Origin: an uncultured Paracoccaceae bacterium
Lineage (GTDB): Bacteria > Pseudomonadota > Alphaproteobacteria > Rhodobacterales > Rhodobacteraceae
Direction of reading: 5' to 3'
DNA: 35,856 bases
Assembly: GCA_947499635.1 (NCBI GenBank)
Contig: CANMPD010000012.1
Span: forward strand, 1 to 35,856
Positions 33,870 to 35,829 of the stretch are shown here, piece by piece. Below the pieces are notes generated by a model. The model did not search any database and had not been told where the DNA came from. It was given only the letters and a program-made list of their open reading frames with translations. A program made the translations under genes and the position numbers. Within the stretch, counting starts at the first letter, position 1. Each line of letters opens with the position of its first letter.

Positions 33870-34970
33870 TTAGCCTGCCAGACGTGCGATATTCTGACGG
33901 CGCGTACTGATGGCGTCGGCCAGCTTGCGCAGCTCGGCTTCGGTATCGGCCCAACCAATGCAGCCGTCTGTGATAGATTGCCCATAGGTCAAGGTCGACA
34001 GATCCCCATCTTTGGGCAAATCTTGGCGGCCATGAACCAAGTGACTTTCGATCATCACGCCAGTGATACGGGTTTCACCACCTTCGATTTGGCCGCGTAC
34101 ATCTGCCAAAACCTCGGGTTGTTTTGCCGGATCTTTGTTCGAGTTGGCATGGCTAGCATCAATCATCACGTGACCACGAATGCCATCCGCCTCGGCTTTG
34201 TCACAGGCTGCGTTCACGCTGTTTGCGTCGAAATTGGTTCCCCCGCCACCGCGCAAGATCAGATGGCAATCAGGGTTGCCAGCCGTATGTGCGATTGCTG
34301 CCAAACCGGACTTTGCCAAGGCCATAAAGTGGTGCTGCGTCGCCGCGGAACGCACTGCATCAATTGCGATTTGCACATTGCCGCGTGTGCCGTTCTTGAA
34401 CCCGACAGGACAGCTGAGCCCCGAGGCCATTTCGCGGTGGATCTGGCTTTCGGTTGTACGTGCCCCAATCGCGGCCCAGCTCACCAGATCTGCGATGTAT
34501 TGCGGAACAGAGGCATCCAGAAATTCCGTCCCCACAGGCAAACCCAGTTCAGAAATTTCGAGGCATAGTTTACGGGCCTGCGACAAGCCACGATTGATGC
34601 GAAAGCTGCCGTTAAGATCCGGGTCGTTAATCAACCCCTTCCAGCCTGCAATCGTACGCGGTTTTTCAAAGTAGACACGCATTACAATTTCCAACCGGTC
34701 GCCCAGCTCCGCGCGCAGCGGCGCGAGGCGGCGCGCGTATTCCATCGCGGCCTCGGGATCGTGAATAGAACATGGGCCAACCACCACAATCAGGCGGTCA
34801 TCGCGGCCATGCAAAATATTCTGTATCTGGGCGCGGGCATCCAACACTGTCTCGCGGGCTGCATCCGTCAGAGGGTGTTTGACCTCTAACGCCTCAGGGC
34901 AGATCAGTTCCTGCATTTCTTGGATACGCAGGTTTTGTGTCGCGGGTTTTAAAGGGATCTCGGTCGTCAT
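33870..34970 (-). CDS. aroG: 3-deoxy-7-phosphoheptulonate (DAHP) synthase, class I AroFGH type
   Basis: This enzyme condenses phosphoenolpyruvate and erythrose 4-phosphate to DAHP, the first step of the shikimate pathway. The protein is 366 residues from MTTEIPLKP (34970). It shows VVGPCSIHDPEAA near 67-79, MRVYFEKPRTIAGWKGLINDP near 97-117, GARTTESQIHREMASGLSCPVGFKNGT near 168-194 and the metal-ligand segments MIDASHANSNK and MIESHL. Which aromatic amino acid inhibits it cannot be told from sequence, so the symbol aroG is by similarity. A 150-base leader carries a Trp-Tyr-Phe-Tyr-Tyr peptide and terminator/antiterminator hairpins, predicting transcription attenuation. It is the only aromatic pathway gene in the window. 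Confidence 0.95.
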   Translation of the reverse strand: MTTEIPLKPATQNLRIQEMQELICPEALEVKHPLTDAARETVLDARAQIQNILHGRDDRLIVVVGPCSIHDPEAAMEYARRLAPLRAELGDRLEIVMRVYFEKPRTIAGWKGLINDPDLNGSFRINRGLSQARKLCLEISELGLPVGTEFLDASVPQYIADLVSWAAIGARTTESQIHREMASGLSCPVGFKNGTRGNVQIAIDAVRSAATQHHFMALAKSGLAAIAHTAGNPDCHLILRGGGGTNFDANSVNAACDKAEADGIRGHVMIDASHANSNKDPAKQPEVLADVRGQIEGGETRITGVMIESHLVHGRQDLPKDGDLSTLTYGQSITDGCIGWADTEAELRKLADAISTRRQNIARLAG

Positions 34971-35021
34971 ATCGTTGGTCCTGTATGTCGTCTGTATTGT
35001 GCTAAGGACCAAGGCGGAGGC

Positions 35022-35057
35022 TAAAAATAAAAAAACCGCCCGGATCCTGGGGCGGTT
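35022..35057 (-). terminator. Attenuator terminator in the aroG leader
   Basis: On the minus strand AACCGCCC (35057-35050) pairs with GGGCGGTT (35041-35034) around an eight-base loop. A run of seven T, an A and five more T follow. It ends about 50 bases before the aroG ATG and 28 bases after the leader-peptide stop. Located upstream of the gene it would control, it is an attenuator and not an end-of-operon terminator. Confidence 0.88.
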
Positions 35058-35123
35058 GGTTCTGGTATCTCATGTTACGCGATTTTACTGCGCGACAGAC
35101 CCTCCGACCGCCTGGTGGCTCGG
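35051..35123 (-). promoter_or_regulatory. Antiterminator and competing 1:2 hairpin in the aroG leader
   Basis: Segment 2 (GGCGGT at 35112-35107 plus GGTCTG at 35101-35096) can pair with segment 3 (ACCGCC at 35056-35051 plus CAGAACC at 35064-35058, one bulged A). This pairing would consume the left arm of the terminator. Segment 1 (CCGAGCC, 35123-35117) can instead pair with segment 2 (GGC...TCGG). Segment 1 directly follows the aromatic codons, so a stalled ribosome would mask it and favour the antiterminator. A ribosome at the leader stop would cover the GGTCTG part and favour termination. Confidence 0.75.
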
Positions 35124-35162
35124 ATAATAAAAATACCATGAGGATGAAAAAGTCTGTGTCAT
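35085..35162 (-). CDS. Aromatic amino acid leader peptide of the aroG attenuator
   Basis: A 25-codon reading frame beginning MTQTFSSSWYFYYPSHQ and ending at TAA (35087-35085). The five consecutive codons TGG TAT TTT TAT TAT (35138-35124) encode Trp-Tyr-Phe-Tyr-Tyr, so translation would stall when any charged aromatic tRNA is scarce. The segment 1 pairing region begins at the very next codon, the right distance for stall-controlled folding. Only a weak purine-rich ribosome binding site (AGG, about 15 bases upstream) is seen. It lies 114 bases upstream of aroG on the same strand, and no other gene could use it. The reading is mine from sequence; expression is not demonstrated. Confidence 0.82.
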   Translation of the reverse strand: MTQTFSSSWYFYYPSHQAVGGSVAQ

Positions 35163-35217
35163 GTCGAAACGCTAGCCTAGAATTCCTAACCTGTCGATAG
35201 GAAAAATCGCCCAAATG

Positions 35218-35829
35218 TTATTTCGCTTTACGCGGCCCGCCCGTGCCACTTTGACCAATTTCAAAATTCCATACCAGCATCATGTTGGTGATGGCTGCAC
35301 CAAGAACCGAATATATAAGCTCTTGAGATGAAAGCACAAAAAAGGATGATCCAAAGACCACACCATCCACTAACAGCTGAAACCACCCGGCCTTAAAACC
35401 AGTTTGCTGTTCGATGATAACGCCCAAAATCGTCGTGCCGCCCGCCGAAGCATTGTGGCGAAACGTCGCGATCAACCCGATACCTGCACAAGCGCCACCT
35501 AGAATCGCGGCCCAAAGTGTCGGCAGAACGGCAAAGCTGATCTGGGATTGCATAACCTGCGAGACGACGGAAATCCCCACAACTGCACACAGTGTCCGTG
35601 CGGCAAATACTGGCCCGCGTTTGATCCAAGCCAACACCAAAAACGGTGCCCCAATCAAAGCAAAGACCAATCCGAAAGACACGGGCGCAACATAGGACAC
35701 CAACAGCGCAATTCCCGCGGTCTGTCCTGTGACCAATCCACCGGCATGTAAGAACGTCACGCCCAAGCTGGTCAATAAAATCCCAAAGACCAACCCTTGG
35801 AAATCAAAAAATGGCATAAAGTTCTTCAT
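35218..35829 (-). CDS. YitT family (DUF161) integral membrane protein
   Basis: A 203-residue membrane protein with five to six hydrophobic helices. The N-terminus reads MKNFMPFFDFQGLVFGILLTSLGVTFLHAGGLVTGQTAG, where LHxxGLxTGxxxG is the typical first-repeat motif of YitT proteins. The second repeat has FRHNASAGGTTILGVIIEQQTG near 120-141. It lacks the long C-terminal DUF2179 domain of Bacillus YitT, matching the short proteobacterial form. The function of the family is not established. It lies upstream of the aroG leader in the same orientation, separated by 55 bases from the leader peptide start. Confidence 0.85.
   Translation of the reverse strand: MKNFMPFFDFQGLVFGILLTSLGVTFLHAGGLVTGQTAGIALLVSYVAPVSFGLVFALIGAPFLVLAWIKRGPVFAARTLCAVVGISVVSQVMQSQISFAVLPTLWAAILGGACAGIGLIATFRHNASAGGTTILGVIIEQQTGFKAGWFQLLVDGVVFGSSFFVLSSQELIYSVLGAAITNMMLVWNFEIGQSGTGGPRKAK

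Follow-up and report, generated by a model that had tools for sequence, protein, structure and literature searches.

A putative ribosome-mediated attenuator with an aromatic codon run upstream of class-I DAHP synthase genes in Proteobacteria

Introduction

DAHP synthase stands at the entry to all of the aromatic amino acids and is a main target of metabolic engineering. In a stretch of 35,856 nucleotides from an uncultured Paracoccaceae bacterium (hereafter the window, meaning the whole stretch that was analysed), a class-I enzyme of this kind is encoded downstream of a short open reading frame (ORF) that contains five aromatic codons in succession, and an earlier note on this DNA had described the interval as an attenuator that senses tryptophan, tyrosine and phenylalanine together. 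Is this leader a ribosome-mediated transcription attenuator and, if so, which of the three amino acids would it read? These questions are addressed here by folding of the leader, by its comparison among class-I aroG loci and by modelling of the position of the ribosome on the transcript.

The locus and its leader

The leader lies on the minus strand between yitT and the class-I DAHP synthase gene, and the 25-codon frame with its aromatic run is present exactly as first read. The features of the locus are as follows:

33870..34970, minus strand: class-I (aroFGH-type) DAHP synthase gene, the proposed target of control (TIGR00034, 514.5 bits; PF00793, 317.3 bits)
35085..35162, minus strand: leader ORF, ATG to TAA, 25 codons, MTQTFSSSWYFYYPSHQAVGGSVAQ; the ORF is shared by relatives
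35124..35138, minus strand: aromatic regulatory codons TGG TAT TTT TAT TAT, read from the sequence, position exact
35218..35829, minus strand: yitT (PF02588), upstream neighbour, assigned by domain match

Upstream regions were judged by fixed criteria, namely an ORF of 15-45 codons with at least four aromatic residues in six, and a terminator that starts no more than 90 nt past the stop codon; on both strands of the window, the sole combination of this kind is the leader ORF at 35162-35085. The genome encodes a second DAHP synthase, of class II (G000:C1:207368-208678), which differs from the class-I enzyme at 33870-34970, and no such leader was found in the 450 nt upstream of this match. If attenuated, the class-I enzyme would be the starvation-responsive one of the two.

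Folding recovered the three hairpins (1:2, 2:3 and 3:4) that had been proposed for the interval between YitT and aroG, the flanking genes being matched by PF02588 and PF00793. These hairpins are built from the following elements, to which the T-rich tract is added:

35117..35123, minus strand: segment 1, CCGAGCC, from folding; kept in the genus, this register not kept family-wide
35104..35112, minus strand: segment 2, GGCGGUCGG, within the ORF; a copy of the terminator 3' arm that pairs with segment 1 or segment 3
35050..35057, minus strand: segment 3, AACCGCCC, which forms the antiterminator with segment 2 or the terminator with segment 4
35034..35041, minus strand: segment 4, GGGCGGTT, the terminator 3' arm, from folding and comparison
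35023..35035, minus strand: T-rich tract, TTTTTTTATTTTT, the predicted end of transcription, from the sequence

Read 5' to 3', the order is aromatic run, segment 1, segment 2, stop codon, segment 3, and segment 4 with the T-rich tract. Segment 1 had been said to start at the codon after the run, and CCGAGCC is found there, its start coinciding with that codon. The terminator stem pairs 35057-35050 with 35041-35034 and is the only terminator-like site in 34900-35300 (mean of 0.3 in shuffled sequences). The stop codon had been placed where a terminating ribosome would cover part of segment 2, but by the usual ribosome footprint a ribosome at this codon would reach back only to about 35102-35105 and barely touch segment 2 (35112-35104), and the placement is not upheld.

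Local folding energies are -8.5 kcal/mol for 1:2, -20.8 kcal/mol for 2:3 with its internal helices and -14.5 kcal/mol for 3:4. With segment 1 free, the lowest-energy fold remains 2:3 and not 1:2, so that 1:2 would be a weak protector at equilibrium and the blocking of segment 2 by a moving ribosome would matter more. For the leader as a whole, the folding energy is unremarkable (z -1.06; a value reached by 28 of 200 shuffles), and it is therefore on comparison that the case rests.

Conservation of the leader upstream of class-I aroG

Class-I aroG was matched in all 18 genomes of the genus, one match being a contig-edge fragment devoid of upstream sequence, and the leader is present in each of the 17 members with upstream sequence. 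These leaders have 25 codons (29 in L003, counted from the first in-frame ATG) and runs of WYFYY, WYYFY or WFYFY. Class-I aroG is rare in the family sample, being found in 8/120 genomes including that of the window, one of them weakly (E 3.5e-4); all six new strong matches carry the leader, with runs WYSFY, WYFYY, WYYFY, WYFYA, WYFYR and FYWF. Class-I aroG occurs in 11/196 genomes of the order sample, and the seven new ones likewise all possess the leader. The earlier note had made its reading depend on relatives that keep the small frame and the aromatic run, and this they do within the genus, in both of these wider samples and beyond the family. A model (R1) built from the 23 leaders found first matched 7/120 family genomes, which are precisely those with a strong aroG match, and under strict filters gave no match in the 113 others; only these 113 negatives are informative, because all seven positives were in the model.

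Further loci were drawn from named genomes (by protein scan, best 80 loci), from a class sample (class-I match in 10/289 genomes; nine new loci used) and from a phylum sample (class-I match in 172/299 genomes; 40 loci used, made up of 19 strong alphaproteobacterial loci and 21 picked by hand). Loci with at least 230 nt of upstream sequence were testable, which left 157, two more being too short. By the fixed criteria, an aromatic leader ORF with its terminator is found at 118 of the 157 testable class-I aroG loci and is absent from 39, compared with 9 of 15,700 dinucleotide-shuffled upstream regions and 0/157 on the reverse strand; the set was chosen by similarity and not at random, some genomes entered twice and the rows are related, so that these counts are not independent. 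The positive loci, which correspond to 106 distinct leader DNAs, comprise 17/17 from the genus, 6/6 from the family, 7/7 from the order, 51/79 from the named genomes, 7/8 from the class and 30/40 from the phylum.

Among the positives are Tritonibacter, Leisingera, Phaeobacter, Thalassovita and Roseovarius, and further ones are found in Caulobacter, Phenylobacterium, Novosphingobium, Inquilinus and Pseudoxanthomonas. By the fixed criteria, no locus of Escherichia, Vibrio or Pectobacterium in this set has a leader, and the same scan found none at the plasmid-borne class-I aroG copies of Cupriavidus EM10 and Caballeronia NK8. In Paracoccus denitrificans PD1222, an FYWF leader precedes PDEN_RS23850 on a megaplasmid, with no gene annotated at the site, though the gene table concerned is incomplete; the upstream neighbour in this species is not yitT but a gene for 5-formyltetrahydrofolate cyclo-ligase, which is encoded on the other strand. 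As a separate observation on plasmids, a stretch that resembles class-I DAHP synthase is present in 350 Escherichia plasmid records.

Compensatory changes in the alternative helices

Covariation was assessed in an alignment of 36 diverse leaders, with 500 shuffles as control. Of the terminator cells, 96.0% are paired, with two-sided changes at 4/9 pairs; no shuffle was as high on cells paired or on covariation, and 7/500 were as high on the number of two-sided pairs. For the antiterminator 2:3, 83.2% of cells are paired and two-sided changes occur at 4/8 pairs, with 0/500 shuffles as high on cells paired or covariation, 4/500 on the two-sided pair count and 107/500 on pair types. At antiterminator pair 64-136, G-C has been replaced by A-U in 2/36 leaders, and the competing terminator pair has become U-G. 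This replacement keeps the antiterminator and weakens the terminator, as selection on the antiterminator predicts, and constitutes evolutionary evidence for alternative pairing in these two leaders.

In the window's register, the 1:2 helix is formed in the 17 genus leaders, save one pair in two of them. Across the 36 leaders this register has 56.3% of cells paired, a value equalled by 212/500 shuffles, and four pairs of the helix show two-sided changes, a count equalled by 14/500; other lineages may use another register. Two expectations had been set out for related genomes, synonymous variation in the codons and compensatory changes in the stems: the former was observed, and the latter were observed for 2:3 and 3:4; the 1:2 helix, in the register of the window, lacks support across the wider family.

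Codon content of the aromatic run

The 106 leaders encode 94 peptides and contain 46 different runs, with Trp, Tyr and Phe codons together in 98/106 and Tyr and Phe codons only in the other eight. Given this variety of runs and the presence of all three aromatics in 98/106, the feature that is kept is, on comparison of the sequences, a class of codon and not one peptide. Within the run, codons ending in U are preferred, which is opposite to the habit of the downstream aroG. At the named loci, TTT:TTC is 86:29 in the runs versus 15:261 in aroG, and TAT:TAC is 92:26 versus 95:167; in the genus, the corresponding ratios are 20:13 versus 21:76 and 39:11 versus 30:44, the p-values for this bias being overstated because the rows are related. 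Slow decoding or a lack of structure are possible reasons for the preference.

Downstream of the run, GGCGG, the copy of the terminator 3' arm, is contained within the ORF of 64 of the 68 leaders compared (those left of the 106 after equal arms were merged, omitting L032, L135 and L136, whose stems lack CCGCC). The residues that are kept after the run are explained by this pairing segment within the ORF. A sub-group formed by L024, L032, L135, L136 and L197, which includes Paracoccus denitrificans PD1222, has a compact run, FYWF or FYWY, with Arg directly after it. Segment 2 (AGCGG) has changed jointly with segment 3 in L032 and L135.

Predicted promoter and start of the transcript

Two promoter elements are predicted upstream of the leader ORF:

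35192..35197, minus strand: predicted -35 element, TCGACA; GACAG is found here in 17/17 genus leaders
35169..35174, minus strand: predicted -10 element, TAGCGT, 17 nt past the -35 element and 6 nt before the ATG

Over the 106 leaders, [CT]GAC occurs most often at 34-36 nt upstream of the leader ATG (counts of 43, 19 and 8). Column information in the promoter region is low, exceeding 0.5 bits at column -1 only, and a consensus promoter scan (at least 9 of 12 positions) did not return the proposed promoter, which scores 8/12, its sole match being on the other strand. In the Shine-Dalgarno zone (-16 to -4), any GGA or AGG is found in just 9/106 leaders. Transcription probably begins at the leader AUG or next to it, and a leaderless transcript is likely, judging from a predicted -10 element only 6 nt before the ATG and from the scarcity of Shine-Dalgarno-like GGA/AGG. 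Such transcripts are reported from other Alphaproteobacteria, with 375 leaderless mRNAs described in Caulobacter crescentus (PMC4117421) and a leaderless trpL transcript in Sinorhizobium meliloti (PMC10117765).

Folding with a ribosome on the leader

The effect of the ribosome was modelled by masking the RNA as far as 13 nt downstream of the first base in the A-site codon, omitting the RNA upstream of the ribosome and folding the remainder to the terminator loop; P(antiterminator) denotes the equilibrium value. For the window's leader, this probability is 0.73-0.75 with W, Y, F, Y or Y in the A site and then drops to 0.61, 0.35, 0.18 and 0.01 at the four codons that follow the run. The modelled switch is not a clean one, given a value of 0.40 in the absence of a ribosome and a lowest-energy fold that is 2:3 even with segment 1 free.

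Over the 106 leaders, the mean P(antiterminator) is 0.66 in the run versus 0.19 from the third codon after it, with values of 0.66 and 0.21 for a footprint of 9 and 0.62 and 0.18 for one of 16; the run value is at least 0.5 in 93/106 leaders and lower in 13/106. As controls, the codons downstream of the run were shuffled to give 2,120 sequences. The steepest fall lies no more than one codon from the last aromatic in 63% of the leaders versus 17% of these controls, and the run mean is at least 0.5 in 88% versus 52%. That the run lies above the codons after it in 106/106 leaders was set aside as evidence, because freeing more RNA always helps pairing. Among the Trp codons, 85/98 give P(antiterminator) of at least 0.5 at equilibrium; in L004 the value is 0.32 at Trp versus 0.53-0.55 at the four aromatic codons that follow it. 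If folding were treated kinetically, the Trp codon, which is the farthest upstream, could turn out to be weaker.

Evolution of the gene and its leader

On a tree of 81 class-I enzymes, built by a quick method and rooted at its midpoint, the leader label requires three changes, compared with 23.2 in shuffles. One group of 53 (support 82, unstarred) unites rows from Rhodobacterales, Caulobacterales, Novosphingobium, Inquilinus and the gammaproteobacterial Pseudoxanthomonas; 51 of these have the leader, one is untestable and one (L067) is negative, its upstream ORF retaining only three aromatics. A single leader-positive row, L081, falls outside the group. This distribution suits a gene and leader that travel together, with transfer itself unproven. 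Two records, L045 (titled Nocardioides marinus DP1N28-1) and L058 (Mycobacterium sp. KBS0706), have an aroG nested among alphaproteobacterial rows and look mislabelled or contaminated.

A broader leader model (R2) was run on the phylum sample of 299 genomes and gave 40 full-length matches of at least 42.8 bits, followed by a gap to 34.7; the weaker matches are mostly partial and mainly terminator-like. All 40 strong matches precede a class-I aroG in the same orientation and at a distance of no more than 150 nt (compared by eye), ten of them being rows of the R2 alignment and many others their near relatives. Under strict filters, a strong R2 match was present in only 40 genomes of the phylum sample versus 172 with a class-I match.

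Proposed mechanism and alternative explanations

At this locus, codons for the end products are gathered in a short ORF, a terminator precedes the gene, an alternative antiterminator is supported by folding and compensatory changes, and the codons are so placed that, in the equilibrium model, a stalled ribosome favours the antiterminator. On these grounds of sequence and modelling, the leader is very probably a ribosome-mediated transcription attenuator of the class-I DAHP synthase gene. A transcript beginning at the leader AUG, or beside it, would be translated at once. When charged aromatic tRNA is scarce, the ribosome would wait in the WYFYY run, leaving segment 2 free to pair with segment 3, and polymerase would read on into the DAHP synthase gene. 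When the supply is good, the ribosome would cover segments 1 and 2, 3:4 would pair and transcription would stop in the T-rich tract.

Attenuators that read several amino acids exist, the E. coli ilvGMEDA leader being an example. It is somewhat more likely than not that all three aromatic amino acids are sensed here through one run, as the codon content of 98/106 leaders suggests. Sensing might in practice be confined to Tyr and Phe, with the Trp codon too far upstream to matter, and this we hold as a tentative alternative, on the doubtful side. With TGG (35138-35136) in the A site, a ribosome of the usual footprint does not cover segment 1 (35123-35117), and pairing of 1:2 is possible before segment 3 has been made; the low value at Trp in L004 and the eight leaders devoid of Trp point the same way. 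A comparable discrepancy between codon and response is reported for the Corynebacterium glutamicum aroR leader, in which a Tyr codon is present, yet Tyr supply has no effect (PMC11802643). Against such a restriction stand the retention of Trp in 98/106 leaders and the 85/98 Trp codons that favour the antiterminator at equilibrium, together with a rough scan in which no Trp-rich leader with a terminator was found upstream of L165, the best trpE match in the window's genome.

The leader peptide itself might act, either as a TnaC-like arrest peptide responding to a free amino acid or in trans, in the form of a peptide or a small RNA; the trpL of S. meliloti yields both a functional peptide and a functional RNA (PMC10117765), and a leaderless transcript is likely here as well. 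As the 106 leaders encode 94 peptides with 46 run orders, there is no fixed arrest sequence, and the residues past the run follow the RNA pairing segment GGCGG, which makes this explanation improbable in place of attenuation, though an added role in trans may exist beside it. A simple intrinsic terminator downstream of yitT, accompanied by an ORF that arose by chance, would agree with the position of yitT upstream on the same strand and with the ordinary folding energy of the whole leader (z -1.06). This explanation is scarcely credible and was rejected: the combination of ORF and terminator occurs at 118/157 loci against 9/15,700 shuffles, the copy of segment 2 lies inside the ORF in 64/68 leaders, and not all carriers have yitT as the gene upstream, Paracoccus denitrificans being one exception.

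Attenuation by aromatic codons, in its fullest form, would make this a proteobacterial leader family, matched by no family of Rfam 15 in the searches made, in which the charging of three tRNAs, for Trp, Tyr and Phe, is integrated by a single ribosome race that sets the shikimate pathway's committed step, and in which leader and gene form a self-contained cassette that moves between lineages. For this combined proposal we judge the case to be evenly balanced. Under it, the leader and the class-I gene would travel as a cassette because no protein regulator is needed. Were all three end products read at once, the leader would provide compact, protein-free cumulative control and a useful sensor part, and would point to the way in which the DAHP synthase step is controlled in carriers from Rhodobacterales, Caulobacterales, Sphingomonadales and Xanthomonadales.

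Comparison with known systems

No Rfam 15 family reaches its gathering score in the window, and in nine relatives nothing does so at the leader, the only match at this score being a cobalamin riboswitch. The latter, in L135 (29-214, minus strand; 116.2 bits), lies upstream of the aroG locus on the other strand. The best weak match on the leader's strand and at its place is Phe_leader (RF01859), with 22.4 bits and E 0.14; membership of this family was rejected, the score being below the gathering score of 55. Membership of Trp_leader (RF00513, accession taken from PMC4046766) was also rejected, as it is absent from the four matches at E of 10 or below in 34950-35250, none of which reaches a gathering score. 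No description of the present proteobacterial leader was found in the part of the literature that was searched; in PMC2965389 and PMC4833913, no mention of aroG, aroF, DAHP or aromatic was found. DAHP synthase attenuators are known in kind, and by the searches made the present leader family appears to be new.

A close likeness, by published description, is with aroR-aroF of C. glutamicum, in which a leader peptide containing Phe-Tyr-Phe precedes a DAHP synthase gene and Phe limitation is reported to raise transcription via ribosome stalling (PMC11802643, PMC4046766). That system belongs to another phylum, and its run, as described, is shorter and lacks Trp. Also similar by description is uORFC-13-1, a candidate short ORF with one or more Phe codons and an intrinsic terminator before aroF of Acholeplasma; it differs in being reported only from Acholeplasma and environmental sequences, in possessing a ribosome binding site and in that only Phe is noted (PMC8632094). 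In E. coli, an attenuator that senses Tyr-tRNA has been proposed for aroF (PMC2659441, with reference to Camakaris 1980; see also PMC8632094); attenuation of a DAHP synthase gene is common to both, but that proposal is a hypothesis only and concerns Tyr. The trpL of S. meliloti is likewise an alphaproteobacterial attenuator leader with a leaderless transcript, but is reported to respond to Trp only and to control trpE (PMC10117765). The pheA, pheST and trp attenuators of E. coli share the kind of mechanism and the logic of the segments (PMC1183508, PMC11802643), but control other genes and sense one amino acid each. If the reading of three tRNAs proposed here is true, one leader would do what E. 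coli does with isozymes and the TyrR and TrpR repressors.
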